A stretch of 64,000 nt of DNA, taken from NCBI RefSeq assembly GCF_041261445.1, contig NZ_JBGCCU010000003.1, forward strand, positions 248,001 to 312,000, read 5' to 3'. This document shows, one piece after another, positions 2,539 through 18,084 of the stretch. The notes below the pieces were generated by a model. It was not told where the DNA came from, did no database searches, and saw nothing but the letters and a program-made list of their open reading frames with translations. This DNA comes from Catenulispora sp. EB89. GTDB taxonomy: Bacteria; Actinomycetota; Actinomycetes; Streptomycetales; Catenulisporaceae. The first letter of the stretch is position 1; every line of letters begins with the position of its first letter. The position numbers and the translations under genes were made by a program.

Positions 2539-3324
2539 TCAGCAGCCGTCGGTGTCGGTGCCGTTGCGGCGACGCCGGTAGACGACAGCGGTGCCGGCGA
2601 TGGCCATCGCGCCGAGGCTGAGGCCGACCTGCGGGTTGACCATGGGGACGGCCTGGGTGGGCGGGGCGCCGCCGCACTGGGCGTGGCCGATGATGAGGTT
2701 GAGGCCGTTGAGAGCCGGCAGGAGCGTCAGGTGCACGGCGTTGACTGTCAGGACGCCGTTCGCGTCAGTGCTCTGCTCGTTGAGGATGATCGTGCCGAGG
2801 CCCGGCACCGACACCGAGGTGTTCGGCGCGGCATTCGCCTGCAGGGTGACCGGGACGAGGCTGTCGACCGTGACGGTTCCGCTGGCGATCACGCCCGAAC
2901 CGGTCGCCTTCCCCGGCGCCGCCGGTGCGGTGCACGTGGAGTTGACGCCGGTCACCGACAGGGTGGTCGGCGAGATGGCCGTGGGGATCGGCAGGTTGAC
3001 GTTGAGGCTGTCCACCGTCGCCGAGGCCGAGGAGGTGCCGGCGGTCACGTCGCCTGCCGTCGTGGCGGTCAGCAGAGCGTTGCTCGCGAAGGGACCGACC
3101 GCGATACCGAGCGTGGTCACGGTCCCGGGTCCGGGCGGCCCGGGGAAGTTGGAGTGCGGGGTGGGGGGCACGGCCACCAGGCCGGCGATGGCGTCGGCTG
3201 AAACGACATAGGCATCTGCAACCGGAGCAGCCAGAACGGCCTGTGCCGGCCCGACAGTGCACATCAGGGTGCCGAGGCCGAGCGCCGCTACAGCTGAAAG
3301 GCGGCGGCCTTTGCGTGAACTCAT
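2539..3324 (-). CDS. Secreted choice-of-anchor-type protein with C-terminal membrane segment
   Basis: A 261-residue protein with an N-terminal signal peptide ('LGLGTLMCTVGPAQA') and a Thr/Ser/Ala/Val-rich beta body. It ends in a three-part tail: a short 'PMVNPQVG' segment, a hydrophobic helix and YRRRR near the end. This matches actinobacterial 'choice-of-anchor' proteins, whose C-termini are processed or held by varied transpeptidases. There is no LPXTG; the motif position reads NPQVG. An exosortase-like gene lies 6.4 kb away on the same strand, so this is a possible client, but that is inference. The start has GAAGGG upstream. Confidence 0.6.
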   Translation of the reverse strand: MSSRKGRRLSAVAALGLGTLMCTVGPAQAVLAAPVADAYVVSADAIAGLVAVPPTPHSNFPGPPGPGTVTTLGIAVGPFASNALLTATTAGDVTAGTSSASATVDSLNVNLPIPTAISPTTLSVTGVNSTCTAPAAPGKATGSGVIASGTVTVDSLVPVTLQANAAPNTSVSVPGLGTIILNEQSTDANGVLTVNAVHLTLLPALNGLNLIIGHAQCGGAPPTQAVPMVNPQVGLSLGAMAIAGTAVVYRRRRNGTDTDGC

Positions 3325-3514: not shown

Positions 3515-5386
3515 CTACTTCCCGGCAGCCGACGCCTGTCCGGAGATCTGAGCGGGCCGGCCGCGCAGGAACGGGAAGTCGAACAGGTGGTCGTCCAAGA
3601 CCTTGTCATCCGGAACGAAGTTGTTCGCGACCGCTCGCTCGCGCATCGCGGGCAGGGCGCGCAACAGCTGCGTTCCCAAACCGTGTTTGACATAGACGTT
3701 GAGCCAGTAGCCGTCGGCGTAGGGCACTCCCTGGGCGTAGTCGAAGCCGCCGCCCTGCTGCAGACGGGCGAAGACGGGCCCTGAGGAGGTGTCGCCCCAC
3801 CACATGCCGCCTCTGGCCGGGCCGCCGCCCAGAGTCACGACGGCGGACAGGTCGGCGAGTACTGCGGGAGGGACCGGCTGGTCCAGGAACGGGTCGGCCA
3901 GGCCGCCGAGGTCCAGGGAGCGCTGATGTGCGTTCAGGCTGAAGGGAAGCGCTCCGGAGTCCATGACCGCGATCGTTCCGTCCAGGCTCCGGTCCGCGGC
4001 GATCGCCGAGCCGAGGGCGTGGTGGGCGTACTCGAGGTGGTAGCGGTACACGGCCCAGCCGACCAGCTCGCCGGCGCTGACGGCGGAGACCGCGGTCATC
4101 AGGCCGACCGCGCCGGCGATCAGCGCCGCGGTGCGTCCGGTACTCCAAGCGATGAGGACCGCGAGGAACGCCGCACACGCCCCGACGATGACGGTGGTGC
4201 GATGCGCGGTGAAGCTGGATCCGCCCTCCAGCACGGCAACCGCCCCGATCAGCAGCGCGAGCGCCACCCACCGCGCCGAGGCCGGCGGCGCGGCCGTCTT
4301 CTCGGCACCGGTGCGCGGCACGAACAGCGGACGGGCCAGCAGCACCACCGCGATGGGGAAGATCAACTGCCAGCGGAACCGGTTGCCGAAGTCCATCTGC
4401 AGATTCGAGACCTGATACAGCGTGAAGATGATCAGGGCACTGGTGGCGGCCAGGACCACCGGCGTGGCCTCCTGCGCCGGCGACAGCCGCTGGGGCCGCC
4501 CCTGCTCGGAACGGGCGCCGGCGCGGTTGCGCCGCAGCCACTCGGCCAGCACGATCAGCGCGACGAACAACAGGACCTTGACCTGCAGGTCATGGAAGAT
4601 CTTGACAGTGGAGGCGACCACGCTGGTCTGGTCCGCGGTCTTGAGATAGAAGGGGTTGGGGAAGAACTTGCCGAAGTACTCGGCCCGAGCCAGCCAGTAG
4701 ACACCGAGTCCGGCGACGACAGCAGAGGCGTTGACGAGGTCGTCGCGGCGACGGCTGAGGTAGTAGGTCCAGAACTCCGCCACGGCGGCGAACAGGATCC
4801 CCTCCGGACGGCTGAACGCGACCGCGACGGCGAGCAGATGACCGGTCCGGTCCAGACGCCCGCGTAGGTACAGGCGGCCGAACAGGGCACTGATACCCAA
4901 GGCGAAGGAGGTGGTCTCCAGCCCGTCGAGCAGGTGCACGAAGAACAACGGGTTCACCAGGGCGAACCCGGCCAGGACGAGGCGTTGCATGCGCGGGACG
5001 GCCAGGCGGGAGACGACGCGGAGGTAGGCCGCGCCGATGCCCAGGGCGAGGATCTTGAAGAAGAGCTCGGTCGAGAAGCCGAGCAGGGCCGGAATGAAGG
5101 ACAGCGCCGCGTACAGCGGGTTGCTGTACGCCTCGACCTTGTCCTGCGACGTCGGGTTCCAGTTCCAGTGGCCGCGCGTCAGGCTCACGCCATAGCGCCA
5201 GGAGATGAAGGCGTCGTCGACCGTGAACCGGATCAGCAGGAACACAAGGACCGCGGCGCACGCCGCCATCCCGATGTATGCCGCCGTGTAGCCGGCGTCA
5301 CGCGGCGCGATCTCCGACGTCGGTTCGCTCCGCGACGCCGAATCCACGGCGACGGCGGGGGGATCGACGTCGTGAAGTGTTGTCAT
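3515..5386 (-). CDS. Polytopic GT-C glycosyltransferase (arabinosyl/mannosyltransferase-like)
   Basis: A 623-residue protein with a short cytoplasmic N-terminus, about ten membrane helices and a C-terminal extracytoplasmic domain of about 190 residues. The first loop carries the GT-C signature VDDAFISWRYG followed by 'KVEAYSNPLYAALS', as in the mycobacterial AftB-type family. The C-terminal domain has the typical 'DSGALPFSLNAHQRSLDLGG' stretch. Such enzymes use polyprenyl-phosphate sugars as donors outside the membrane. It lies 104 bases downstream of the exosortase/GT2 operon on the same strand and probably finishes the same glycan, perhaps from its own promoter in the AT-richer gap. Donor and acceptor cannot be read from sequence. 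Confidence 0.8.
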   Translation of the reverse strand: MTTLHDVDPPAVAVDSASRSEPTSEIAPRDAGYTAAYIGMAACAAVLVFLLIRFTVDDAFISWRYGVSLTRGHWNWNPTSQDKVEAYSNPLYAALSFIPALLGFSTELFFKILALGIGAAYLRVVSRLAVPRMQRLVLAGFALVNPLFFVHLLDGLETTSFALGISALFGRLYLRGRLDRTGHLLAVAVAFSRPEGILFAAVAEFWTYYLSRRRDDLVNASAVVAGLGVYWLARAEYFGKFFPNPFYLKTADQTSVVASTVKIFHDLQVKVLLFVALIVLAEWLRRNRAGARSEQGRPQRLSPAQEATPVVLAATSALIIFTLYQVSNLQMDFGNRFRWQLIFPIAVVLLARPLFVPRTGAEKTAAPPASARWVALALLIGAVAVLEGGSSFTAHRTTVIVGACAAFLAVLIAWSTGRTAALIAGAVGLMTAVSAVSAGELVGWAVYRYHLEYAHHALGSAIAADRSLDGTIAVMDSGALPFSLNAHQRSLDLGGLADPFLDQPVPPAVLADLSAVVTLGGGPARGGMWWGDTSSGPVFARLQQGGGFDYAQGVPYADGYWLNVYVKHGLGTQLLRALPAMRERAVANNFVPDDKVLDDHLFDFPFLRGRPAQISGQASAAGK

Positions 5387-5490
5387 GCACAGATCGTGAC
5401 ACGGTTTGCTGTGCTATCAGGACATTGGCCGCGAAAACACCGATATATGTGGTTTGTCCAAGATCTCAATGCCCCTATGATCCGCGGCAC

Positions 5491-5682
5491 TCACCGATTG
5501 CCGGGGGCTGTGGTCGGGCATCCGTCGGCGGTCGAGGCTCCGGCTCCGCTCGGCGCGCACTGCACGACGCCGTCCGGAGCCGCAGGATGACCACCGGCGA
5601 AGACGCCGATGGCGACGCCGATCAACGTGGCGAGCACCGCCGCGGACACCGCGACCCGGCCGAGGACGGCGACCCGGCTCAT
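5491..5682 (-). CDS. 63-aa exported or signal-anchored peptide
   Basis: A small gene whose ATG overlaps the stop of the preceding membrane-protein gene as ATGA, so translation is probably coupled. The product has one hydrophobic helix (residues 10-29) after a short basic N-terminus. A 33-residue Gly/Ala/Pro-rich tail follows with two cysteines (C42 and C55) that could form a disulfide outside the cell. I recognise no family. Its position as the last tightly linked gene of the exosortase/GT2 operon suggests an accessory role in the same pathway. The overlap, in-frame stop and sensible topology argue that it is real. Confidence 0.6.
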   Translation of the reverse strand: MSRVAVLGRVAVSAAVLATLIGVAIGVFAGGHPAAPDGVVQCAPSGAGASTADGCPTTAPGNR

Positions 5683-7358
5683 CGCATCTCCCCCGCTTCT
5701 GGATCCACTGCTGTGCTGTCCACTGCTGTGCTATCCAACGCGGCGAGCCCGGCCAACAGCAGTGGGCCGAGGAGCATCGTTCCGTAAAGCACGAAGACCA
5801 TGTGCTTCTCCAGATCGCTTTCTCCTTCGGACAGCATGACGGCCCAGAACTGCGCGACAGTCGCGGCGGCGAACGCGGCCAGCGTCACGCCTACTCCACG
5901 GGCCGCCACGCTCAGGGTGCGCCGCCGAAACAGGAACACTCCGCCGACCAGCCCCGCGCCCCACAGCCCGGGGATCACGACCCAGCGGAACGGCTCGGCC
6001 AGAGTGAACACGGCCGAGGACACGCACACCCTGCATTCCTGTGCGTAGGGCGGCTTTCCCGCGGTGATCGGGTAGTTGCCCAAGTAGGAGGGGCGGGTGG
6101 CCGTCACACCGATCAGCCCCCGGTCTGCGACGCCCAGGAGCCTGACCGGGTGGCCCACGTAGAAGCCGAGGACCTTTCCCAGCGACGCCTTCGCGACGAA
6201 CTGGGGATAGTCCGGCAGGTTGGCGGCGGACTTGGGGTCGACGATCGAGGTTCCCGCCGCCGATGCCAGCGACTCGTCGAGGCCCAGCGCGCGCAGATCC
6301 GCCTTCGGATTCGGGCTGTGCCCCAGGAGCTCCCGGAAGACGGCGTCGTAGACGACGATCTCGTGGAACCAGCGTGGCTGCACCTGTTGGAACGACAGTG
6401 TGCCGAACGACAGGACGGCGCAGGCCGCCATCGCCGGACCCCGGACGGCCAATGCGCTGCCGACGCGGTTGCCGGCGGCTGCGAGCCGGTCGCGCGACGC
6501 GGAGGGACGCATCAGCAGGATCGGTACGACGACGATCAGCAGGCTCGCCATCTGCGTCTTGGCACCGATGGTCCATGCCGTGAGCACTGTGACGATCAGG
6601 ATGTCGGCACCGCGATAGCGCGCCTGGCCGAGCAGACGGAGAAGCGCCGGGATCAGGAGCAGCATTCCGATCAGGGCGGCGGGCTCGCTGAACGGGGAGT
6701 TGAAGTACGGCGCGATCGCGCTGTCGCAGGTGGCCAGCCCGATTCCGGACGCGATCAGGATCCGCAGCCACTTCGGACCGACGAGTTCGTGAACGGTCCA
6801 CGCGATCCCCGCAGCGAAGACAGCGGTGAACACGATCCCCAGCATCCGCAGGTCCAGAGCACCGGGCAGACCGAACAGACCGGTGAGCCACTTGGCGGCC
6901 CACAACGGGACGATCTCAGTGGACAGATATCCCTGCCCGCTGCCTCCGGCCGAGCAGGCCTCGCCGTACCAGGTGTAGGAGTCATAGCGAGGCGTCGTAT
7001 AGGCCCACAACGCCTGGGTGACCGGCAGCGGATGCGGTGCCACGCCGAGTTGGCACAGCAAACGGTGGCCGTCGAAATTGTCGGCGAACCCGATGGCTCC
7101 GCCGGCGTAGAGCCGGACCAGCATCACCAGCGCCCACACCAGGCCGGTGGCCAATGCGCAGTGCTGCTGTGCAACGCTTGTGACGATTCTCTTGGCGGTG
7201 TTCACCGCGGCAACGACCATCGCCTCAACGTCGGGCGCGTCGGGCGCGTCAGACCTTTCGGGCCTGTCGGGCCTGTCGAGCGCGTCCGACGCCACCGCTG
7301 CGACACCGGCCGCGGCCTCGGGCAGGACGGCCTCGTCCGGGACAACCACGGTATCCAT
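5679..7358 (-). CDS. Polytopic membrane glycan-biosynthesis protein, GT-C/WsfD-like
   Basis: A protein of 559 residues from ATG 7358, chosen because the upstream lipoprotein gene stops 5 bases earlier; longer in-frame starts would overlap it heavily. The N-terminus (about 65 residues) is cytoplasmic, acidic and Pro-rich and contains a short DRP/DAP repeat. About 11 membrane helices follow. The first outer loop has 'FADNFDGHRLLCQLG' and several Cys, and a later stretch reads 'NSPFSEPAALIGMLLL', as in WsfD-type hexose transferases and other GT-C-fold proteins. The predicted role is sugar transfer or flipping for an envelope glycan. It is tightly packed between the lipoprotein and the 63-aa peptide. 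Specificity is unknown. Confidence 0.65.
   Translation of the reverse strand: MDTVVVPDEAVLPEAAAGVAAVASDALDRPDRPERSDAPDAPDVEAMVVAAVNTAKRIVTSVAQQHCALATGLVWALVMLVRLYAGGAIGFADNFDGHRLLCQLGVAPHPLPVTQALWAYTTPRYDSYTWYGEACSAGGSGQGYLSTEIVPLWAAKWLTGLFGLPGALDLRMLGIVFTAVFAAGIAWTVHELVGPKWLRILIASGIGLATCDSAIAPYFNSPFSEPAALIGMLLLIPALLRLLGQARYRGADILIVTVLTAWTIGAKTQMASLLIVVVPILLMRPSASRDRLAAAGNRVGSALAVRGPAMAACAVLSFGTLSFQQVQPRWFHEIVVYDAVFRELLGHSPNPKADLRALGLDESLASAAGTSIVDPKSAANLPDYPQFVAKASLGKVLGFYVGHPVRLLGVADRGLIGVTATRPSYLGNYPITAGKPPYAQECRVCVSSAVFTLAEPFRWVVIPGLWGAGLVGGVFLFRRRTLSVAARGVGVTLAAFAAATVAQFWAVMLSEGESDLEKHMVFVLYGTMLLGPLLLAGLAALDSTAVDSTAVDPEAGEMR
7233..7286. repeat. Six 9-bp imperfect tandem repeats
   Basis: Six consecutive 9-mers (units such as GGGCGCGTC and GGGCCTGTC) lie inside the N-terminal tail of the GT-C-like membrane protein. 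On the minus strand they encode Asp-Arg-Pro/Asp-Ala-Pro-like tripeptides. This is probably slippage-prone linker DNA. Confidence 0.75.
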
Positions 7359-7363
7359 CCCAC

Positions 7364-8227
7364 TCACGGCGTCACCGAGCCGAGCGCGCGCAGTGTCCCG
7401 GTCGCCAGTCGGTCCTTGTCCTTCGGACCGATCCAGCAGAACCCTGAGACGGCGCCGGCGTGCGGCCCGTCCCCCGGCGGGGGTTCGGGGTACAGCACCA
7501 GGTCCGGACGATTGGTGAGCGCGGTACCCAGGTACGTCGCCACAGGGGAGACGCATGCGGCAGCGACCTTGGCCACCTTCGTCTTGCGATCGGCCTTCAA
7601 CTCCGTCGCGGTGAACTTGACGTACGGATACACCAGCTCCCAGTTGTGCGGCTGGTCACAGGTGAGCTCGACATCCCCGAAGGAGCAGACCCGGAACCTG
7701 GCGCCGGCCGCCCGGCGCAGGATCTGCTTCAACGGCATGGCGACCGATGCGACCGACGCCGTGGTCCGGGGCCCGACGAGTGCGTCGCAGCGCACCTCGC
7801 GGATTCCGGCGCGCCACTCGTCGTCGCTCGGCAGAATCTGCAGCGGGACGATGTCGCGGAAGATGTCGACGTCGGTCGCGCCGAGGTAGGCGCCCAAGTC
7901 GGACCACTTGCACGCCCCGGCCACCGCGTGCTGGAGCCACAGCGGGCTGGGCCGCTGCTCGGGGGCGGCGACGGCGCCGGTGATCGGCACCACCGCGTAC
8001 GTCTCGCTCTGATGCTCGGACTGGCAGGGCACAGCCGGAGACGTGTCCGACAGCATCATCGGGTCGGTCTGGACCGGCTGGTCCAGCCGGTGGCAGGAGC
8101 CGACGTCCCAGACCGTGGTGAACGTACCGACGCCCATGCCGACGTGTTCGAAGATCGGAGAAGAGGCACAGCCACCGAGTCCGGCGGTCAGCACGGCCGC
8201 GGCCAGCATCGCCATCGCGCGCTTCAT
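7364..8227 (-). CDS. Septum-formation-domain lipoprotein
   Basis: A 287-residue protein with a lipoprotein signal peptide (lipobox LGGC, lipidated Cys20). The mature part has two similar cysteine-containing blocks: 'DVGSCHRL ... VPCQSEHQSETYAVV' and 'FRVCSFGDVELTCDQPHNWELV'. This CxxxH pattern is typical of the actinobacterial 'septum formation' family. Its ATG overlaps the stop of the GT2 gene (ATGA), so the two are co-translated. It should sit on the outer face of the membrane beside the glycan synthase, perhaps as an assembly factor. The family has no established biochemical function, and the role here is inferred from the operon. Confidence 0.75.
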   Translation of the reverse strand: MKRAMAMLAAAVLTAGLGGCASSPIFEHVGMGVGTFTTVWDVGSCHRLDQPVQTDPMMLSDTSPAVPCQSEHQSETYAVVPITGAVAAPEQRPSPLWLQHAVAGACKWSDLGAYLGATDVDIFRDIVPLQILPSDDEWRAGIREVRCDALVGPRTTASVASVAMPLKQILRRAAGARFRVCSFGDVELTCDQPHNWELVYPYVKFTATELKADRKTKVAKVAAACVSPVATYLGTALTNRPDLVLYPEPPPGDGPHAGAVSGFCWIGPKDKDRLATGTLRALGSVTP

Positions 8228-9681
8228 CGGGCGATCGCGTCCGAAGTCTGGGCGTCCTGAGTTCGGGCAACCTGAGTCTGGGCAACCTGAGTTCGGGCGT
8301 CCTGAGTCTGGGCGTCCCGCGAAGCCTGGGCGGAACGGGGAGTAGGGAGCGCCAACTCTGCGTTGCGCCGTGTCTTGGGCCAGGCGGTACGCCCGGTGAC
8401 CAGACGGGCGAAGGCACGCCAGGCGATCGCGTAGCTCAGCCAGGCGTAGCCGACCAGCCCGACGCCGATCGCCCAGGCCTGGCGGCTGCTGAGCCCGCGC
8501 TCGCAGCGCCGGCGATAGACCCAGGCCCAGATCGCGAACTCACCGAACCCGATCACGAAGTACAACGCCAGCATCGCCGCGCCGCCGTCCCGCAGGAACG
8601 TCTCCATGAAGGCCGGGTAGCGCGCCGCGTTCGAGAACAACACGATCAACGGCGCCGGGTAGGCGACCGTGCCGATGATCTGCAACCAGGGCTGCGCCAT
8701 GAAGTAGGTGACTTCCAGGAGCCCTGCGTTGGAGAACTGCGGAGACTGCCAGATCTGCGGCAGGTACCGGACGCACTGCATCGAGCCCTGGGCCCAGCGG
8801 GTGCGCTGGACCAGCAGCGCGCGAAGGCTCCACAGCGCCTCCTGCTCCACCCAGGCGTCCGTGGTGTACGCGATCCGCCACCCGGCCAGCATCAGCCGCA
8901 GCCCGATCTCGTAGTCCTCCAACAGGGCGTTGCCCCACGGAGCACCGGCTTCCTGTGCAGCGGAGTCCAATGCCGACAGACGAACGAGTTGGCCGTTGCC
9001 ACCCAGGTTCACCGTCGCCGACCGTTCACGGAGGATCTGCATCGCGGAGATCGGGCCCCGGAACTCCACATCCTGCAACCGCGCCAGCAGCATGGCCGAC
9101 AGGTTGCTGACGATTCCCTTGCCGGGCAGCGGATGGCGCCGGTCGCGGTTGGACATGCGCACTTCGACTTGCGCCGCACCGTAACGGCGGTCGGCGAACA
9201 CCGCGCTACCGGCACAGACCTCGAACAAGTTCGCCGAGGGACGGCCGTCGGCATCGACCACGCACACCAGCACCCTGTCCCGGTCGGCATCGGTCGCCAT
9301 CGTCCGGCACAGCTCCCGGTAGGCGGCATTGAGGGCATCGCCCTTCCCGGTGCGCGCTTCCGGCATGGTCCGACGCACCAGGCGCACAGCGGCGTCATCG
9401 CGACCCAGCTCCTCCACGATGGACGCGGTGGCGTCCTGCGAAGCGTCATCGATGACCCAGAGCACCGCCAACGGGAACGTCCCCCGGAGGTAGGCCACCG
9501 TGTCGGCGATAACGGCTGCTTCGTCGCGACACGGGACCAGGAAGTGCCACTGGTAATGCGCGGGATCACCGGGCGATCCCGGCGAGCGGTGCAGAAAGCT
9601 GAACACCAGCGCGATGACGTACCACAAGAAGGAGAATCCGAAGACCAGGGAGAGGACGACACAGAGTTCGAGCGGATCCAT
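8224..9681 (-). CDS. Processive-type family 2 glycosyltransferase (membrane polysaccharide synthase)
   Basis: A protein of 485 residues from ATG 9681; an upstream TTG at 9762 would overlap the exosortase gene. An N-terminal helix is followed by a GT-A domain with all four processive GT2 signatures: D78-D79 after 'VLWVI', D143-A-D145, E255-D256 in 'LLEDYEIG', and QRTRW at 292-296. Three or four helices follow, as in cellulose- and hyaluronan-synthase-like enzymes. It should polymerise a nucleotide sugar and extrude the chain; the product is unknown. The C-terminus ends in an odd pentapeptide repeat. It lies 25 bases after the exosortase gene and overlaps the lipoprotein gene. Confidence 0.85.
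   Translation of the reverse strand: MDPLELCVVLSLVFGFSFLWYVIALVFSFLHRSPGSPGDPAHYQWHFLVPCRDEAAVIADTVAYLRGTFPLAVLWVIDDASQDATASIVEELGRDDAAVRLVRRTMPEARTGKGDALNAAYRELCRTMATDADRDRVLVCVVDADGRPSANLFEVCAGSAVFADRRYGAAQVEVRMSNRDRRHPLPGKGIVSNLSAMLLARLQDVEFRGPISAMQILRERSATVNLGGNGQLVRLSALDSAAQEAGAPWGNALLEDYEIGLRLMLAGWRIAYTTDAWVEQEALWSLRALLVQRTRWAQGSMQCVRYLPQIWQSPQFSNAGLLEVTYFMAQPWLQIIGTVAYPAPLIVLFSNAARYPAFMETFLRDGGAAMLALYFVIGFGEFAIWAWVYRRRCERGLSSRQAWAIGVGLVGYAWLSYAIAWRAFARLVTGRTAWPKTRRNAELALPTPRSAQASRDAQTQDARTQVAQTQVARTQDAQTSDAIAR
8239..8313. repeat. Five 15-bp tandem repeats encoding A-(Q/R)-T-(Q/S)-(D/V)
   Basis: The last 29 codons of the GT2 gene contain five consecutive 15-base units. They read, in protein, as AQTQD, ARTQV, AQTQV, ARTQD and AQTSD, forming a polar cytoplasmic tail. 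The near-identity of the units at DNA level indicates recent expansion. Confidence 0.85.
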
Positions 9682-9706
9682 TATGTGGTGAAGATACCCT
9701 TCGAGA

Positions 9707-10315
9707 TCAAGACCGCGATCGCCGATCCCGGCCGACACGAGGTCGCCATTCCCGCGAAACAATCAGGTAATAGACAGCCGAAGCCGCCGCCATGCCCACC
9801 AAAGTGAGAATCGAACCGAACAAGGTGTGACCCCAGCCGAAGCCGGTCTGAACACCCCACCAGACCATCAGGCCGGCGATCATCACCAGCCGCAGCAGAT
9901 TGACGGCGATGAAGACCACTGCCGCGGCCGCAGCCGCGAAACCCAGCTTGACCAACGGCCTGGCGCTGTACGCGGCCATGATCCCGGTGATCATCAGCAT
10001 GGGGGCCAGCAAGAACACGCTGCTGCACCCCAGCGACACGTTCAAGCCCAGCATGTGCTTCGTGCCACCGGTCTCGAACGCGAAGAAGAACGTCTGCCGG
10101 TCGGTGACTGCGACAGCCGAGAATCCCAGCAGCTGGTGGACCGCGCCGGCGGCAAGTCTCGACTCGAAGCCCCGGTAGCCCGCTTCGGCGACGATCAGCA
10201 GCGCCGCCGAACCACACATCAGTCCGGCGAACAGCCACCGGACCACGTGGCGGGCACGCGCCGGGGGCAGTACGGCTCGCAGCGCACCATCCCCAGCGAG
10301 GAAGTCAGCGGACAT
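9707..10315 (-). CDS. Exosortase/archaeosortase-family transpeptidase-like membrane protein
   Basis: A 202-residue polytopic protein (about 6-7 helices) with the three invariant exosortase residues in the right order and setting: Cys97 in 'LGCSSVFLL', Arg142 in 'NLLRLVMI' and His163 in 'WGHTLFGS'. Family members cut a C-terminal LPXTG-like or PEP-CTERM-like signal during export and often pass the protein to a glycan or lipid. In Gram-negatives they sit beside exopolysaccharide genes, as here beside a GT2 synthase. The gene starts 4 bases after the stop of a 54-aa peptide with its own sorting-like signal, which makes that peptide the first substrate candidate. Which exosortase subfamily this is I cannot say. 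Confidence 0.85.
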   Translation of the reverse strand: MSADFLAGDGALRAVLPPARARHVVRWLFAGLMCGSAALLIVAEAGYRGFESRLAAGAVHQLLGFSAVAVTDRQTFFFAFETGGTKHMLGLNVSLGCSSVFLLAPMLMITGIMAAYSARPLVKLGFAAAAAAVVFIAVNLLRLVMIAGLMVWWGVQTGFGWGHTLFGSILTLVGMAAASAVYYLIVSREWRPRVGRDRRSRS

Positions 10316-10319
10316 CCGC

Positions 10320-10484
10320 CTAACGGCCCGACCGCTTCAGAACCATCGTGGACCGGACCAAGCACGCACCGGCGACGACCGCCCCCACAGCGAAGCCCAC
10401 GATGACGGCGATGTTCGGAGCTCCCGTCGCCGCCAGGGCGCCCATTCCGCCCGCTCCCCCGATTGCTCCAACGTGAGCACTCAT
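10320..10484 (-). CDS. 54-aa peptide with LAATG sorting-like signal, putative exosortase substrate
   Basis: A short gene with an excellent ribosome site (AGGAG 8 bases before the ATG) ending 4 bases before the exosortase start. The peptide has 16 mostly Gly/Ala residues, then L17-A-A-T-G21, then a hydrophobic helix (residues 25-43) and a basic tail ending KRSGR. This is the three-part layout of a cell-wall sorting signal, and LAxTG is the class E sortase motif of actinobacteria. It has no N-terminal signal peptide, so the whole protein is almost only the anchor. It could be a minimal substrate, a carrier for a glycan, or a small membrane partner of the exosortase. No named family is recognised. 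Confidence 0.7.
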   Translation of the reverse strand: MSAHVGAIGGAGGMGALAATGAPNIAVIVGFAVGAVVAGACLVRSTMVLKRSGR

Positions 10485-10727
10485 TCCGAATTCTCCTCAT
10501 CCGTGGTCGACCTGCCTCAGATTAGCCACTCGGCATCCCGATACCGTCGCCCAACACGCCACGGAATAAGCCACGAATCCCACCGGTCAGAATCACCCTT
10601 CGCGGTAATACAAAGTACCTACTAGGCCGACAGGGCCAATTTCCCGGAGAACCGCGTTGAGGATTTCGGCGACACGCACCCGACCCCACACAGTGGCATC
10701 GCCCAAAGTGATCGACGCGAGAAACGG

Positions 10728-11855
10728 ATGGTGGACATGGCTGCGGGTTCGAATTCTCTGACCGGGACGGCGGTACTGGTCCTGGGAACTCGGCCGGAGA
10801 TCGTGAAACTGGCCCCCGTCGCGCGCCACCTCCCGGACCGGGTCCGCGTCGTCCACACCGGCCAGCACTACGACCACGACATGTCGGACATCTTCTTCGA
10901 CGAGTGCGAACTGCGCCGTCCCGAAACGACTCTCGCCATCGGGGGCAAGCCCCGCGGTGCACAGATCGGCCTGGCCGTGCAAGCCCTCGACGAGTTGTTC
11001 GGCGCGCAGCGGCCCGCGGTCGTGCTGGTCCAAGGCGACACCAATTCTGTGGTCGCCGGCGCACTGGCCGCCAACGCCCACGACATCCCCCTCATCCACG
11101 TCGAGGCCGGACTGCGCAGCCGCGACCGCCGCATGCCCGAGGAGCACAACCGGATCATCGCCGACCACCTGGCGACCGTTCTGTGCGCGGCCACCGAGCT
11201 CAACGTGGAGAACCTGAGGGCCGAAGGCATCCCCGCCGACCGCATCGCCCTGACGGGGAACACCATCGTCGACGCCGTGAACCAGGCGCTGCCCACCGAA
11301 GGACAGCGCGCGAAGGTACTCGCCGAACACGGACTCCAGGCCGACCGGTTCGTCCTGGCCACCATCCACCGACCGGAGAACACCGACGATCCGGCCATCC
11401 TGACCACCGTCATCTCCGAGTTGGCAGCCCTGGCGACAGCCGGATGGCCGGTACTCTTCCCCGCTCATCCCCGCACACGCGCCGCCCTGTACGCGGCCGA
11501 CTGCCACCACCTGCTGGCCGGCCTCATCGTCACCGAGCCGCTCGGCTACGCCGAGTTCCTGGCGCTGGCCGCCGAAGCGGCATTGGTCGTCTCAGACTCC
11601 GGCGGGGTACAGGAGGAAGTCACCGTCCTGAAAAGACCGCTCATCGTCGTACGACGCTCAACCGAACGTCCAGAAGCGCTGCGCGACTTCGCCAGGCTCA
11701 TGCCGCCGGGAACGCCCATCGCCGACGAAGCCCTCACGATGCTCGCTTCCGCTTCATCGGAGCTGCAGCGCCTGTCCGTTCTGGAGTCTCCCTTCGGCGA
11801 CGCACACGCAGGGGCTCATATCGCGCGCATCGTCGAACGGTTCCTGCGCGCCTAG
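10728..11855 (+). CDS. wecB: Non-hydrolysing UDP-N-acetylglucosamine 2-epimerase
   Basis: A 375-residue protein of normal family length. It converts UDP-GlcNAc to UDP-ManNAc in the cytoplasm. Signature stretches are GTRPEIVKLAPV, 'HTGQHYDHDM', 'VQGDTNSV', 'HVEAGLRSRDRRMPEEHNR', 'LTGNTIVDAV', 'TIHRPENTD' and 'VVSDSGGVQEEV', covering both Rossmann halves and the catalytic acidic and His residues. It is transcribed divergently from the exosortase/GT2 operon with 243 bases between, so it plausibly supplies ManNAc-type sugar for that glycan. The start could be ATG 10728 or ATG 10737; neither has a strong ribosome site. Confidence 0.92.
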   Translation: MVDMAAGSNSLTGTAVLVLGTRPEIVKLAPVARHLPDRVRVVHTGQHYDHDMSDIFFDECELRRPETTLAIGGKPRGAQIGLAVQALDELFGAQRPAVVLVQGDTNSVVAGALAANAHDIPLIHVEAGLRSRDRRMPEEHNRIIADHLATVLCAATELNVENLRAEGIPADRIALTGNTIVDAVNQALPTEGQRAKVLAEHGLQADRFVLATIHRPENTDDPAILTTVISELAALATAGWPVLFPAHPRTRAALYAADCHHLLAGLIVTEPLGYAEFLALAAEAALVVSDSGGVQEEVTVLKRPLIVVRRSTERPEALRDFARLMPPGTPIADEALTMLASASSELQRLSVLESPFGDAHAGAHIARIVERFLRA

Positions 11856-11997
11856 CTCAGACGGATACGAAGGCCCGGCGGTCCTCGTTCAACTTGACCA
11901 AGCCAGTTTTGCTAGGAGTCCTAACCCGACCACGGCCGCGCCCCCCCGTCCGTTCCGTGTCCCAGATCTCGGTGAATTGCACAGATAAGGCGCTTAA

Positions 11998-12690: not shown

Positions 12691-15600
12691 TCAGAACCCG
12701 AATCTGCCCTTGAGCTCCTCCCACTTCGCCTCGCCGTAGGCCTTGGCCGAAATCTCTCCGCCGGGCACCTTGTACTTCACCCACGCGTCCTGGTGGTAGA
12801 CCTCGTGGAAGAATGTGGTCACTGCCTCCTGGACATTCTCGAGACCGATGTTCGAGAAACGGATGATGGGCTTCCCGGTCACGCCCAGATCCGGGCCGCC
12901 GTACGCGGCCGGCGAAATCCCATAGGCCGGATATCCGTCATCATCGAGAATCACCGGCGTATACTCGAAATCGTATTTCGAGGCCAGATCCCCGAACCCG
13001 GCTCGCCCGAGGATCGCCTTGAAGCGGTCGATGCAGATGATCGGCCCGGTCGGGTACCACGCGGGACGGTTCTTCGGCCCTGACCGGTACGCGTCGGCCG
13101 AATCCGTGGCCGCCTGCGTCTCGGACGCGTCCGTCGCGGCCGCATCACGCTCCCAGCCGGTCAGGCCGCCGATGCCCAGCGCCGCTATCTGCCCGGCCAA
13201 CTGGTCACCGGCCTGGCTGTACAAGTCAGCCAGCTGCGGGCAGCCTTCCTGCCGGAGCAGGTCGGCGATGTGGTACAGCCGGTACGCCGGCCGCACCGGC
13301 ACGTAGGTGTCGAAGAAGTTGCTCCAGCCGCCGTTCTTGCCGGTGGCGGCGTCGTAGACGTCCCCGGCGAGCTTGAACGGCGCCTTGACACCGATCACGA
13401 ACCCGCTGGAGAACTCGTCCCACTGGTGCCCCAGCCAGTCGAAGATGTCGTTGCCACTGGGGTCGGTCAGGTACGTCGGCCCATCGGCCACATAGGCATA
13501 GGACGCGACGTAGGGGTCCCCGACCGCCGAGGAATGCGCATCACGGCTGCTGAACCGGCCCGTGCTCGGGTCCATGATGCGGGCCCGCATATCCAGCTTG
13601 CCCGTGATGCTCTGATCCACCAGCGCACCAGTGAAACCGAACGGCTGAGCCGGCGGAGTCGTAACCAGGCTCTTGACCGTCTGAGAACCGAATGCGTCAT
13701 ACGTGTCGGTGTACTGATCCACCCCGGTCGAGGACAGCAGATCAGAGACCGACCCCAGGTAGTCGTGGGTGTCGTAGAACGCGCCGGTGGTGGTGTGTTC
13801 GGAGGTGATCGTACCCAGCGGGTCATAGTGATAGTCGCCGGTCAGCGCACCACTGCCGGTGGTCATGGTGGCCAGTTGCGGCAGCTGACCGTTCGAGTCC
13901 CATGTCTGAACCCGGTTCAAGCCGCCGCTGACAAAGGTCTTCACCCGGTTGCCGGCGGCATCGTAGGTGAATGTCTTGGCGAGGCCGCCGATGGTCCCGC
14001 CGGACAGCTCGCCAGCGGCGTTGTACGTGAACGTGTTGGTCCCGGCAGCGGTCTGATCGCCGTCGGCATCGTAGGTGTAAGAGGTCGTCGCCGTGCCCTT
14101 GACCGAGGTCGTCAGCTCGTCGGCGGCGTCATACGTGTACGTGGTCGTCGACCCGCCCGCACTCTGCGTCAGCCGGTTGCCGACCTTGTCGTAGGTGTAC
14201 GTGCTGACCGTCGACCCGGACGGGCAGCCCGTCGTCGCCGACGGCGTGGTGCAGGCGCTGGTCAACCGCCCAGCGGTGTCATAGCCGTAGGTGAGCGTGG
14301 AAGCGCTCGCCCCGCTGTGCGTCACTGCGATCGACGTCGGCCGACCGTCCTGGTCCAGCGTCAGGTTCTCCGAAGCCAACGTCGCCGTGCTGCTGGCCGC
14401 CTTGATACCGGTGAGCTGCCCCGCGGCGTCTATCGTGCGGGTCTCGGTGTACCCGACCGTGGCAGGCAGCGCGCTGGAGACCAGGTTGCCGGCGGTGTCA
14501 TAGCCGTAGGTGGTCGTGGCTCCATCCGCGGTCTGCGTGGCCAGCTCGTTGTCCCCGTTGTAGGTGTAAGTGGTGTTCTCACCGTCCGGGTACGTGCGCG
14601 AGGTGACGTTGCCCGCGTTGTCGTAGGCGTACGTGAAACCGGCCTCCGTCGAGGTGCCGGTGACCCCGGTCAGACGCCCGGCCGCGTCATATCCCAAGGT
14701 CCGGGCACCGGTGGCGTCGGTGAGACCGGTCAGGTGGCCGGCCTTGTCGAAGACCTGGGCGACCGCGGTGGTGCCATCGGAATAGGCGGTGTTGGTGACC
14801 AGTCCGCGACCGTCATAGGTGCGGGTCGTGGTCTGACCACGGGCGTTGGTGAACACCACCGCATGGCCGTCGGCGTCGTACGTATACCCGACCGCGTGGC
14901 TCAACGGGTCGGTGACGCCGGTGAGCCGCCGTGCCGCGTCATAGGCGTACGTCGTGACGTGAGCGTTGGCATCGGTACGGGTGACCACATCGCCCACCAC
15001 GTCGTAGCCGTAAGTGGTCGCCCCGCCATCGGGCGCGGTAACCCCGGTCACCCGGCTGTCGGCGTCGTAGGCATAGGTCGTGACCGCGCCGGTCGGATCG
15101 GTGGTCGAGGTCTGCCGGTTGTCGCCGTCGAACGCCGCCGCGTGAACACCGCCGAGCGGGTCCGTCACCGTCGTGGGGTTCCCGGCCGCGTCGTAGCCGT
15201 AGGTGGTGGTGTAGGCGGCGGGATTGCCGCCGGTGACCGTGCCGCGGGGATCGATCGAGGTCACGGTCCGCTCGTCGGCGTCGAAGGTCCACTTCGTCGT
15301 CTCACCGGCCGCGGTGGTCTGCGAGACGTGGTTGCCGTCGGCGTCATAGGCCGCGCTCGAGCGGTTGCCGTCGCGGTCGACGGCCGTCAGCTGCCGGCCG
15401 AGCGCGTCGTAGGTGAAGGTCGCCGCGTGCCCGAGAGCATCGATGGCGGAGGTGACGTCGCCGGTCGCGTCGTAGCCGGTCTTGGTCACCGCCCCCAGCG
15501 GATCGGTGACGCTGACCTTCCGGTTGATGACGTCGTAGGCGGTGGTGCTGACCGCACCGGTCGGATCGGTGACAGTGGTCTGATTGCCGTTGGCGTCGTA

Positions 15601-18084
15601 GCCGAAGGTGGTGGTGTAGGCGGCGGCGTTGGCACCGGTGACATTGCCGCGCGGGGTGACGGTGGCGATGACGCGGTTGGCTTTGTCGTAGGTGCTGCTG
15701 GTCTTGTCGCCGAGGGGGTCGGTGGTCGACAGCAGGTTCCCGTTGGGGTCGTAGGCCTTGGTGACCGTCTTGCCCGCCGCGTCGGTGACGAGCGTGGCCC
15801 GGCCGTCGGCGTCGTAGGCGGTGGTGGTGGCCTTGCCCAGCGGGTCGGTCATGCCGGTCTGCTGCGCGTCGGCGTCGTACGTGTAGGAGGTGGTGTTGCC
15901 CGCCGGATCCTTCACCGTGGCCAACAGGTCGGCCGCGGTGTAGGTGTAGGTGGTCGTGTACGGCGCCGGGTTCGCGCCGGTGAGGTTGCCGCGCGGGTCG
16001 GTCTTGGTGAGGATCCGGCCCGAACCGTCGTAGGTGAAGGTGGTCTTCTCCCCCGCGGCGGTTGTCACCGATGTGCGGTTGCCAGCGCTGTCATAGCCGT
16101 AGGTCGTGGTCTCCCCGCGGGGCGTCGTCTCCGTGGCCAACTCGCCCAGGCCGGTGTAGCTGCGCTTGGCCACACCGCCGTTCGGGTCGGTGGTGGTGGT
16201 CAGCCGGCCCAGGGAGTCATAGGTGTAGCTGGTCTTGTGGTTGTTGCCGTCGGTGTGCGCCGTGACGTTGGCCGCGGCGTCGTAGGTCCAGCTCTCGGCG
16301 TAGGACAGGGGAGCCGGCGCGGTGCGGGTGAGCATGTTGCCGGCGCTGTCGTAGGTCATCGACGTGGTGTTGCCGAGGCGGTCGGTGATGCCGATCTGGT
16401 TCAGGGACTTGTCATAGCTGTAGGAGACCGAGTTGCCGAACGGGTCGATGCTCTGGGTGAGCACGTTGTTGGCGTAGATGTCGGTCCAGACGCCGCCGTT
16501 GGGGTCGGTCATGTCCGATTCTTGGGTGGCGGCCTTCCACACGAAGGTGGTCTTGGCGCCGACCCCGTCGGTCTGACTGCTGACGCGACCAGTAGTCGCG
16601 TCGTAGGTGTTGGTGACCACCGTGTGCGCGAGAGCGTCCTTGACGGTCAGCAGGCGGTTGCTGCTGTCATAGGTGTAGGAGGTGACGCCGCTGCGGACGT
16701 CGGTCACGGCGGTCAGATCGGTGCCGGTGTAGGCATAAGACACCGCGCGGCCGTCTGGGAGCGTCGCCTTCGTCAACAAACCGTTGCTGCCGACAGTGAA
16801 GGTCACCACGCGTCCAGCAGTGTCAGTAACGCTGGCGAGGTGTCCCGAGGAGTCGTAGGCCTCTGACAGGCCATGCCCGGAGGCGTCGAGGATCCCGGTG
16901 AGGCGGCCGTTGGCGTCGAACGTGCGGCTGGTGTGATCGAGGGCGGCGATTGTGAAGCCCGAGGCGGTTTTCACCAGGCTCAGGTGTACCCCGGCTGGTG
17001 GACTGTACGTACCGTCGGGATTCTGTGTGAACGCCATCTGCGAGCCGTCGCTGTCGGACAGGGTCTCGGTGCCGGAACCGGCCGACAGGCGCGCGTCGAA
17101 CTGTGTCGACCAGCCGGTCCCCAACAACCCGGTCGCGGTGCGATCCGAGCGGTAGTTCCGGGTCAGCGCGAACGGCGTGCCCGCCCCGGTCAGTTTCAGG
17201 TCGGTGGCCTGCTGGTAGTAGGCGCCGGTGGCGGTGTTCACCGGGTCGGCTTTGCTGTTCTGCGCGTAGCAGGTGCAGATCCCGGTCTCGGCGCCGGGGA
17301 TGTCCGGGGTGTAGAAGACGGTGACGTTGTTGGAGTAGGTGCCGTTCGGGCTGAAGTCACCGGACGTGGACTCGAACAACACCTGCGCGAAGTAGACCTG
17401 GCCGTCCTTCAACGGACCGCCCGGGGCGTTCCCCAACGACCAGAAGCACCAGTCCGCAGGGTACTGCGACGGCGGCCACCAGCCGTAGCAGTACCCGCCG
17501 GAGGGCTGGCCGTTGTACGTGGTGGGATCGACGTTGGCCGGGATCTCCTGGGAGTAGACCAGGGTCCCGGTCGAGTCGTACACCAGCACCGCGAACTCCT
17601 GCAGGCTGGCCGCGGTGGTACCGGCCGGGATGTGCGTGTCCACATCGAGGGTGATCTCGCCTGGGTACACCAGCGAGTCGCCGACCACCTCGTCCGGATC
17701 CGGCGGCACCACATTCGGCGACACCACCCCGGCGGCGGCATGCCGCGGCAGCGACGGCCGCGCGATCCCCGGCTTGGAATGCACCGGCGGCGTCGGGTGC
17801 GCGGCCAAATCCTTGTCCCGCTTGGCCGCCTGCACCGGCGTCAACCCACCGAGCTGCCTGGCCACCTGCGCATGCCGCTGATCCAACGTCATCGGAATAG
17901 GAGGAGGAGGCGGCTTAGCCGACCTGACCTCGTGACCCGCCGACGAGGACGTCCCCGCTCGTCCGGCGGCAGAGGGCCCGGCAAATGCGGCCGGCGCCTG
18001 GACGCCGACGAGGACCAGGACAGAAGAAAGGAACAGCACAACCCATCGAGACACCACGGCACGCACGGAGATACCAACCCCCAT
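12691..18084 (-). CDS. Secreted Rhs/YD-repeat polymorphic toxin with C-terminal HExxH metalloprotease domain
   Basis: A 1797-residue protein. Its parts are: Sec signal peptide (1-36), unique N-terminal region, DUF6531-type 'DPVNTATGA' near 280, dozens of YD repeats (about 350-1430), and an Rhs core ending 'MRARIMDPSTGRFSSRD' to 'TDPSGND' near 1546. A variable tip of about 251 residues (DNA 12691-13446) follows. The tip carries HEVYH at 1760-1764 with candidate third ligands Glu1777 or Glu1785, so it is probably a zinc protease. YD shells encapsulate toxins; unlike Gram-negative forms, this one is exported by Sec. No VgrG or T6SS gene is nearby. The next gene downstream is an immunity candidate. 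The start codon could also be a GTG shortly downstream. Confidence 0.9.
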   Translation of the reverse strand: MGVGISVRAVVSRWVVLFLSSVLVLVGVQAPAAFAGPSAAGRAGTSSSAGHEVRSAKPPPPPIPMTLDQRHAQVARQLGGLTPVQAAKRDKDLAAHPTPPVHSKPGIARPSLPRHAAAGVVSPNVVPPDPDEVVGDSLVYPGEITLDVDTHIPAGTTAASLQEFAVLVYDSTGTLVYSQEIPANVDPTTYNGQPSGGYCYGWWPPSQYPADWCFWSLGNAPGGPLKDGQVYFAQVLFESTSGDFSPNGTYSNNVTVFYTPDIPGAETGICTCYAQNSKADPVNTATGAYYQQATDLKLTGAGTPFALTRNYRSDRTATGLLGTGWSTQFDARLSAGSGTETLSDSDGSQMAFTQNPDGTYSPPAGVHLSLVKTASGFTIAALDHTSRTFDANGRLTGILDASGHGLSEAYDSSGHLASVTDTAGRVVTFTVGSNGLLTKATLPDGRAVSYAYTGTDLTAVTDVRSGVTSYTYDSSNRLLTVKDALAHTVVTNTYDATTGRVSSQTDGVGAKTTFVWKAATQESDMTDPNGGVWTDIYANNVLTQSIDPFGNSVSYSYDKSLNQIGITDRLGNTTSMTYDSAGNMLTRTAPAPLSYAESWTYDAAANVTAHTDGNNHKTSYTYDSLGRLTTTTDPNGGVAKRSYTGLGELATETTPRGETTTYGYDSAGNRTSVTTAAGEKTTFTYDGSGRILTKTDPRGNLTGANPAPYTTTYTYTAADLLATVKDPAGNTTSYTYDADAQQTGMTDPLGKATTTAYDADGRATLVTDAAGKTVTKAYDPNGNLLSTTDPLGDKTSSTYDKANRVIATVTPRGNVTGANAAAYTTTFGYDANGNQTTVTDPTGAVSTTAYDVINRKVSVTDPLGAVTKTGYDATGDVTSAIDALGHAATFTYDALGRQLTAVDRDGNRSSAAYDADGNHVSQTTAAGETTKWTFDADERTVTSIDPRGTVTGGNPAAYTTTYGYDAAGNPTTVTDPLGGVHAAAFDGDNRQTSTTDPTGAVTTYAYDADSRVTGVTAPDGGATTYGYDVVGDVVTRTDANAHVTTYAYDAARRLTGVTDPLSHAVGYTYDADGHAVVFTNARGQTTTRTYDGRGLVTNTAYSDGTTAVAQVFDKAGHLTGLTDATGARTLGYDAAGRLTGVTGTSTEAGFTYAYDNAGNVTSRTYPDGENTTYTYNGDNELATQTADGATTTYGYDTAGNLVSSALPATVGYTETRTIDAAGQLTGIKAASSTATLASENLTLDQDGRPTSIAVTHSGASASTLTYGYDTAGRLTSACTTPSATTGCPSGSTVSTYTYDKVGNRLTQSAGGSTTTYTYDAADELTTSVKGTATTSYTYDADGDQTAAGTNTFTYNAAGELSGGTIGGLAKTFTYDAAGNRVKTFVSGGLNRVQTWDSNGQLPQLATMTTGSGALTGDYHYDPLGTITSEHTTTGAFYDTHDYLGSVSDLLSSTGVDQYTDTYDAFGSQTVKSLVTTPPAQPFGFTGALVDQSITGKLDMRARIMDPSTGRFSSRDAHSSAVGDPYVASYAYVADGPTYLTDPSGNDIFDWLGHQWDEFSSGFVIGVKAPFKLAGDVYDAATGKNGGWSNFFDTYVPVRPAYRLYHIADLLRQEGCPQLADLYSQAGDQLAGQIAALGIGGLTGWERDAAATDASETQAATDSADAYRSGPKNRPAWYPTGPIICIDRFKAILGRAGFGDLASKYDFEYTPVILDDDGYPAYGISPAAYGGPDLGVTGKPIIRFSNIGLENVQEAVTTFFHEVYHQDAWVKYKVPGGEISAKAYGEAKWEELKGRFGF

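Follow-up and report, generated by a model that had tools for sequence, protein, structure and literature searches.

We identified a candidate substrate for an actinobacterial exosortase in a 64,000-nucleotide (nt) stretch of Catenulispora sp. EB89 (contig NZ_JBGCCU010000003.1, positions 248,001 to 312,000; hereafter, the window), where a short XrtP-like exosortase lies beside a processive synthase of glycosyltransferase family 2 (GT2). The candidate is a 54-amino-acid (aa) leaderless peptide with an LAATG motif, encoded directly ahead of the exosortase. Comparison of related loci brought out the peptide as a steady member of the locus, its tie to the GT2, the tie of its LAxTG motif to a transpeptidase and, in a few loci, what appears to be an exchange of the exosortase for a class E sortase. 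On balance, we think it probable that the peptide is a dedicated transpeptidase substrate that couples a synthase-made polymer to the cell envelope. Its role as a substrate is well supported by sequence comparison, and its head would be the part to which glycan is attached.

The peptide consists of a Gly-rich head without a signal peptide, LAATG, a single transmembrane (TM) helix and a basic tail. Its open reading frame (ORF) is preceded by a Shine–Dalgarno sequence, GAGGAG, and ends 4 nt before the ATG of the exosortase. Motif, hydrophobic stretch and then Lys and Arg follow one another as in a sorting signal, and no hydrophobic segment of the kind expected for an N-terminal signal peptide lies ahead of the TM helix. 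The peptide scored 42 bits (1.8e-9) against a hidden Markov model (HMM) of its family, a value that is partly circular since the profile contains the window peptide, and 14.2 bits against the NCBIfam model NF058583, for which the curated cut-off is 65.

We compared the window with loci collected by scanning named genomes with a GT2 profile, from which 80 loci were kept of at least 477 confirmed relatives; the window and loci L020–L026 bring the total to 88 (L019, on the same contig as L035, was dropped). Within 7.5 kilobases (kb) of the GT2, we detected the peptide in 87 loci (86 by HMM and L020 by eye), an exosortase in 85, a WecB-type UDP-N-acetylglucosamine (UDP-GlcNAc) 2-epimerase in 84 and a choice-of-anchor P surface protein in 59, together with WsfD in 15, Septum_form in 14 and a sortase in 5. 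Of the 86 peptides, 81 carry L(A/P)xTG, which lies 2 to 7 residues ahead of the TM core in all but three; a median of 25 residues precedes the core, and Lys and Arg are commoner after it than before it in all 84 peptides scored. Apart from its N terminus, the head has few conserved residues. L106, the only locus without the peptide, is also the only one of the 85 with an exosortase in which that enzyme (11392–11856) lacks both Cys and His, with Ser and Leu in their respective places and Arg kept. The peptide adjoins the exosortase in the window as in L022, L024 and L025, and in L026 a single 233-aa frame (6614–7315) fuses an LPYTG peptide to the exosortase. A second fusion, a 930-aa frame in L022 (2102–4894) that joins the GT2 to the WecB epimerase, supports a supply of UDP-N-acetylmannosamine (UDP-ManNAc) to the synthase. 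The neighbourhood proposed in the original prediction, which was made from the window alone, is thus conserved among these loci, although XrtP is matched (E ≤ 1e-6) in just 1 of the 14 genomes of the family to which the window belongs. The corresponding figure for a class-wide sample is 9 of 394 genomes (E ≤ 1e-8), a distribution as sparse as that of an accessory system.

Two scans compared DNA near the GT2 with DNA elsewhere. A rule-based peptide scan returned 138 candidates in 492 kb near against 22 in 1297 kb far, counts raised artificially by the ends of exosortases and the tails of choice-of-anchor proteins. A cleaner scan for Met-Tyr peptides gave 158 in 867 kb near the GT2 against 28 in 1361 kb elsewhere, uncorrected for relatedness.

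The N terminus of the head is marked by a tyrosine. Tyr occupies residue 2 in 83 of the 86 peptides and residue 4 in one; the two peptides that lack it, the window copy and that of L039, both have Ser2, and the window copy contains no Tyr at all. Among 15 further peptides from the wider search described below, 11 have Tyr2 and four Tyr3 (L206 on condition that its longest frame is the correct one), and the peptide of L029 also begins Met-Tyr. Grouping at 60% identity gave 40 clusters, with Tyr2 in 36, Tyr3 in one, Tyr4 in one and no Tyr in two; Tyr at residues 2–4 in 38 of 40 clusters compares with a background of 0.6% at residues 7–18. The residue is written by both TAC (75) and TAT (7), which suggests that the amino acid is conserved rather than a DNA motif. 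Since our choice among possible starts favoured Met-Tyr, we examined Shine–Dalgarno matches of at least 4 bases, which were present at 85 of 101 starts used; alternative starts in the same frame had one in 38 of 114 cases, and random positions in 23%. The peptide HMM was likewise trained mainly on Met-Tyr peptides. Nine of the 15 further starts lie inside the longest frame and were chosen by the gene caller or by eye; the gene caller's own choice for L206 was an internal start lacking Tyr, and neither L204 nor L206 has a Shine–Dalgarno match at Met-Tyr. In the main set, the starts of L043 and L057 were set by eye.

In three loci, L087, L096 and L103, we found no exosortase match, an intact LAVTG peptide and a sortase beside WecB. 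These sortases score 178.7, 191.9 and 190.8 bits, all above the class E cut-off of 160. L028 and L040 hold both an exosortase and a sortase (204.9 and 202.1 bits). Amycolatopsis orientalis DSM 40040 has a locus of each type, L104 with an exosortase and L087 with a sortase. In a GT2 tree whose root was placed for drawing only, the GT2s of L087, L096 and L103 form one clade within a 16-row group (99/98 support), in which 12 rows come with an exosortase and one, L141, with neither enzyme. As the sortase-type GT2s are nested in a group of mainly exosortase loci, an exchange of exosortase for sortase E would be the simplest reading. Class E sortases recognize LAXTG (PMC5148588). Sortase E passed its cut-off in 15 of 16 genomes, comprising the window genome and 15 in which a GT2 has the peptide as neighbour but no exosortase match (G076 fell below), against 139 of 197 genomes in the class, a difference that says little as evidence.

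The class sample also allowed GT2s with and without an exosortase to be compared. Among its 394 genomes, 34 hold 37 GT2 places between them, nine of which have an exosortase. An LAxTG peptide accompanies all nine (eight by HMM and L020 by eye), whereas the HMM found none at the other 28. At 12 of these exosortase-less places, a different Met-Tyr single-span protein, without LAxTG near the TM helix, is encoded directly upstream of the GT2, and at two more the upstream protein starts Met-His. The GT2 of L157 branches among those of exosortase loci and has neither an exosortase match nor LAxTG beside it, with Met-Tyr retained. Met-Tyr single-span proteins ahead of exosortase-less GT2s were seen at L142 (4867–5238), L143 (9383–9715), L145 (9627–9977) and L147 (8115–8441).

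The tie between peptide and synthase extends to other GT2s. The peptide HMM matched in 201 of 394 class genomes, and many of the matches listed lie in much longer frames, as expected for the tails of larger surface proteins. Among the matches listed we picked by eye 28 places with short or full-length frames (10 + 18), which is not a census. Fifteen hold leaderless, Tyr-headed LAxTG peptides with no exosortase match in the stretch, and all 15 peptides lie beside a GT2. None of the other 13 short matches lies beside a GT2 within the 4–11-kb stretch searched; several of these have a signal peptide by eye, L213 looks leaderless, has no Tyr and lies near a contig end, and L214 and L223 offered nothing usable. 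For three of the 15 GT2s, scanned singly, the top models were PgaC or NodC, under cut-off, which suggests that the peptide partners several synthase types. No Met-Tyr peptide was seen beside related GT2s on plasmids of Limosilactobacillus (L165) and Furfurilactobacillus (L167), or beside that of an Alicyclobacillus plasmid. Repeat proteins rich in Ala and Thr adjoin the GT2 in L165 (which also has WecB) and L167; these loci may represent a Firmicutes analogue that lacks the Met-Tyr peptide. On a Streptomyces plasmid (L168), an unannotated Met-Tyr single-span frame (4750–4992) overlaps the GT2 start; a deacetylase and WecB are annotated nearby, and no exosortase is annotated in the stretch.

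The genes of the locus and its flank are as follows:
2539–3324, minus strand: choice-of-anchor P surface protein with a C-terminal TM helix and an RRRR tail (NF040603, 73 versus 27 bits)
3515–5386, minus strand: 623-aa polytopic protein, family unproven, with DDAFISWRY near the N terminus
5491–5682, minus strand: 63-aa peptide with a hydrophobic segment at the N terminus, not the conserved substrate
5679–7358, minus strand: WsfD-type hexose transferase, longest frame from 7556 (NF051875, 342 bits, cut-off 80)
7364–8227, minus strand: Septum_form lipoprotein (PF13845, 42.5 bits, cut-off 25)
8224–9681, minus strand: processive GT2 synthase (NF053846), with a possible alternative upstream TTG start at 9762
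9707–10315, minus strand: XrtP-like exosortase, 202 aa (TIGR04178 over cut-off), with Cys97, N139-L-L-R142 and H163-T-L-F-G167
10320–10484, minus strand: 54-aa leaderless LAATG peptide
10728–11855, plus strand: WecB-type UDP-GlcNAc 2-epimerase, divergent from the operon (TIGR00236, 294 bits, cut-off 210)

The exosortase scores 33 bits against TIGR04178 (exo_archaeo; cut-off 23) and 98 bits against the XrtP model NF012139, short of its cut-off of 200; we therefore call it XrtP-like and do not file it as XrtP. It has the superfamily motifs C97, N139-x-x-R142 and H163-x-x-x-G167, and Cys97, Arg142 and His163, which the original prediction had pointed out, are at the positions it gave and are retained in 84 of the 85 locus exosortases (whole frames), L106 being the exception. 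XrtP is matched at E ≤ 1e-42 by 42 of the 85. The window enzyme gave no XrtG match at E ≤ 1 in the NCBIfam scan. Its AlphaFold2 model is of high confidence (predicted local distance difference test (pLDDT) score, 91.6) and has five helices of at least 17 residues; it gave no fold match in the PDB at E ≤ 0.001, and the protein has no PDB sequence relative at E ≤ 1. A second exosortase (TIGR04178, 39.8 bits) is encoded elsewhere in the same genome (contig C19; L027, 9375–12973), with a GT2, a PIG-L-like deacetylase (by eye), a choice-of-anchor P relative and a WecB-type epimerase (6863–8038) as neighbours; no LAxTG peptide was found beside it.

The tightly linked GT2 scores 587 bits against NF053846, 'XrtP-associated glycosyltransferase' (cut-off 520), and its motifs DD, DAD, ED and QRTRW, already recognized in the original prediction, are invariant in all nine aligned sequences and follow the D,D,D,QxxRW pattern of processive GT2s. 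Its closest related named models are PgaC and EpsU, both under cut-off. At L137, L138, L139 and L140, a GT2 over the 'XrtP-associated' cut-off has no exosortase match within its 16–17-kb stretch, and the NCBI name seems to overstate the link to the exosortase.

Family assignments of the remaining genes bore out the septum-formation lipoprotein and the divergent epimerase. Both polytopic proteins that had been described as GT-C-like are present, and one of them is WsfD-like; for the other, at 3515–5386, a GT-C fold is unproven. That 623-aa protein passed no family cut-off in the NCBIfam and Pfam scans, had no PDB relative by sequence and yielded a poor AlphaFold model from three sequences (pLDDT, 41.9); among the loci searched, its only relatives are in the sortase-type loci L087 and L103. 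The 63-aa peptide had been put forward as an exported mini-substrate. Its N-terminal hydrophobic stretch is there, but phmmer matched it only to itself among the loci searched, and we rejected it in that role; the mini-substrate idea was right in kind and belongs to a different ORF, 10320–10484, that had been missed. Beside the choice-of-anchor P gene lie two further exported- or surface-type proteins by eye (40–882 and 914–1501), the former with a C-terminal TM helix and a basic tail (by eye); the latter, of 195 aa, has no relative among the loci searched. On the other side, the epimerase is adjoined by an RHS-like (by eye) frame of 1797 aa that is rich in YD-type repeats (12691–18084).

We propose that the locus would be an envelope-polysaccharide operon built around the exosortase. 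UDP-ManNAc supply is established for the WecB family, and WecB here would convert UDP-GlcNAc to UDP-ManNAc. The GT2 would make and extrude an N-acetylhexosamine-type polymer, which WsfD may decorate outside the cell. The peptide would span the membrane once, the short Gly-rich head exposed to the exterior and the basic tail in the cytosol, a topology suggested by the positive-inside rule and the excess of Lys and Arg behind the TM core. The exosortase, as a sortase-like cysteine enzyme, would attack LAAT/G, free the head from its membrane anchor and pass it to an acceptor. The polymer would grow on or join the head through Tyr2 (Ser2 in the window copy), or the head would guide the polymer; as the N terminus of the head is conserved with GT2s whatever the cutting enzyme, the head probably serves the polymer as a primer, acceptor or guide. 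In P. alvei, WsfD transfers glucose to N-acetylmannosamine (ManNAc) in a Tyr-linked glycan that is exported (PMC2943079), consistent with a product here that contains ManNAc. The connection of cleavage with glycan that the original prediction drew is now better supported, and we still infer it. A bolder version is possible but doubtful, in which the leaderless peptide of about 55 aa offers its N-terminal Tyr (or Ser) as the site where the synthase starts or joins the polymer, the synthase exports head and polymer together, and sortase E or exosortase then cuts LAxT/G and fixes a peptide-capped polysaccharide to the wall. If so, a sortase would sort a polysaccharide rather than a protein, and one signal would serve exosortase and sortase E interchangeably.

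Several observations weigh against a substrate that couples polymer to envelope. We found no experiment on any of these proteins in our literature search. Active sites of GT2s are expected in the cytosol and the head would be outside; for the head to prime the polymer directly, a topology that is so far unproven would be required. The window copy lacks the Tyr, and the ratio of nonsynonymous to synonymous rates in the peptide is 0.55 over 122 non-independent pairs, which is only moderately low. At 4 of the 8 class-sample places over the NF053846 cut-off (G405, G369, G373 and G243), neither exosortase nor LAxTG peptide was found in 16–17 kb, which indicates that the synthase can work without the module. 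The Met-Tyr proteins of L142, L143, L145 and L147 carry LALTG or LAFTG (LALTG in L147) near the N terminus, far from the TM helix, and this fits no sorting model. The fused peptide and exosortase of L026 would fit a regulatory role as well, and the enzyme may act mainly on the choice-of-anchor P protein.

An unlikely alternative that takes up these last two points is ordinary protein sorting, in which the exosortase mainly processes the choice-of-anchor P protein at 2539–3324 and is restrained by the peptide in the role of an adaptor, inhibitor or pseudosubstrate. Relatives of the surface protein are present in 59 of the 88 loci, with a C-terminal TM helix and a basic tail in those inspected, and the L026 fusion would provide one peptide per enzyme. 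The peptide is, however, steadier than the surface protein (87 against 59 loci) and also accompanies sortase E and GT2s with no exosortase nearby, and the inspected choice-of-anchor P tails carry ASG or other motifs in place of LAxTG. The constant linkage of peptide to GT2 would also be explained by an uncut accessory subunit, a single-span synthase partner like IcaD and PgaD, which are accessory subunits of synthases, with LAxTG incidental. The Met-Tyr proteins directly before 12 exosortase-less GT2s and the Met-Tyr protein of L157, all without LAxTG near the TM helix or at all, point the same way. We nevertheless regard this as rather improbable: L(A/P)xTG occupies a near-fixed spot before the TM helix and is kept whether the locus has an exosortase or a sortase E, and L106, the locus of the dead exosortase, lacks the peptide.

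Small size, a Gly-rich head and dedicated enzyme genes would also suit a signalling or antagonistic peptide that is glycosylated, released by the transpeptidase and secreted or displayed; this seems very unlikely, as the partner GT2s resemble processive synthases (PgaC and NodC models, under cut-off) and the head is poor in conserved residues save at its N terminus. Least credible is a chance origin of the 54-aa frame through the high GC content of the DNA. Its low score on NF058583 (14 against 65 bits) and its lack of Tyr would allow this, but the ORF has its own Shine–Dalgarno sequence and its stop lies 4 nt before the exosortase; LAATG, TM helix and basic tail match those of relatives, and the gene is exosortase-adjacent as in L022, L024 and L025. 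Returning to the peptide as a transpeptidase substrate, its interest is that one concrete molecule would link both halves of the locus, with one end tied to the synthase and the other to the transpeptidase, and the reading proposes how Gram-positive cells could covalently anchor synthase-made polymers.

Exosortases are named for their location in exopolysaccharide loci and, to our knowledge, what joins the two is still open. A typical sortase substrate is a secreted protein that carries a signal peptide, whereas the peptide here is leaderless, about 55 aa long and linked to a GT2. The linkage of exosortase and synthase that the original prediction had suggested could be a new Gram-positive system is real, but the pair is not new: NCBIfam already models XrtP, XrtR, XrtS and XrtG and two associated glycosyltransferases, and XrtP (NF012139) with NF053846 represents the same enzyme pair, although of the window pair only the GT2 passes its cut-off. 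The names of these two models make no mention of a peptide, of a sortase E exchange or of a wider GT2 tie. The peptide is in part the same family as the LAXTG small protein NF058583 and is to that extent known to NCBIfam; 40 of 84 peptides match that model at E ≤ 4e-18 (estimated to be close to the cut-off), which the window copy does not reach, and its name (WW) points to one subgroup. In the literature searched, we did not meet the name XrtP, and found nothing on LAXTG with an exosortase, no paper on the peptide family and no account of the peptide–GT2 tie, the N-terminal Tyr or the exosortase–sortase E exchange. LAXTG and glycosyltransferase occur together in two papers.

Among described systems, the XrtG system of Firmicutes (TIGR03110 and TIGR03111) is named in PMC12854382 with a Firmicu-CTERM protein and two glycosyltransferases; it shares a Gram-positive exosortase, glycosyltransferases and a protein with a C-terminal signal, but has other exosortase and glycosyltransferase models and a target that carries Firmicu-CTERM instead of LAxTG. 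The EpsH/PEP-CTERM system shares Asn-x-x-Arg, His-x-x-x-Gly, a conserved Cys and the tie to polysaccharide genes (PMC1569441); EpsH has at least 8 TM helices and Cys-x-Gly, whereas the window exosortase is short (202 aa, five helices) with C97-S-S, and the EpsH mutant left the polymer itself unaffected according to the same paper. The Tyr-linked S-layer glycan of P. alvei (PMC2943079) shares WsfD, ManNAc and Tyr as the glycan anchor, but that glycan is assembled on a lipid and then transferred to a large S-layer protein. A parallel in substrate design comes from SrtE1/E2 and the chaplins of Streptomyces coelicolor (PMC5148588), with LAxTG, TM helix and basic tail in common. In three loci, a class E sortase appears to replace the exosortase for what seems to be one and the same peptide, so that exosortase chemistry could be tested with the better known sortase E as a yardstick.

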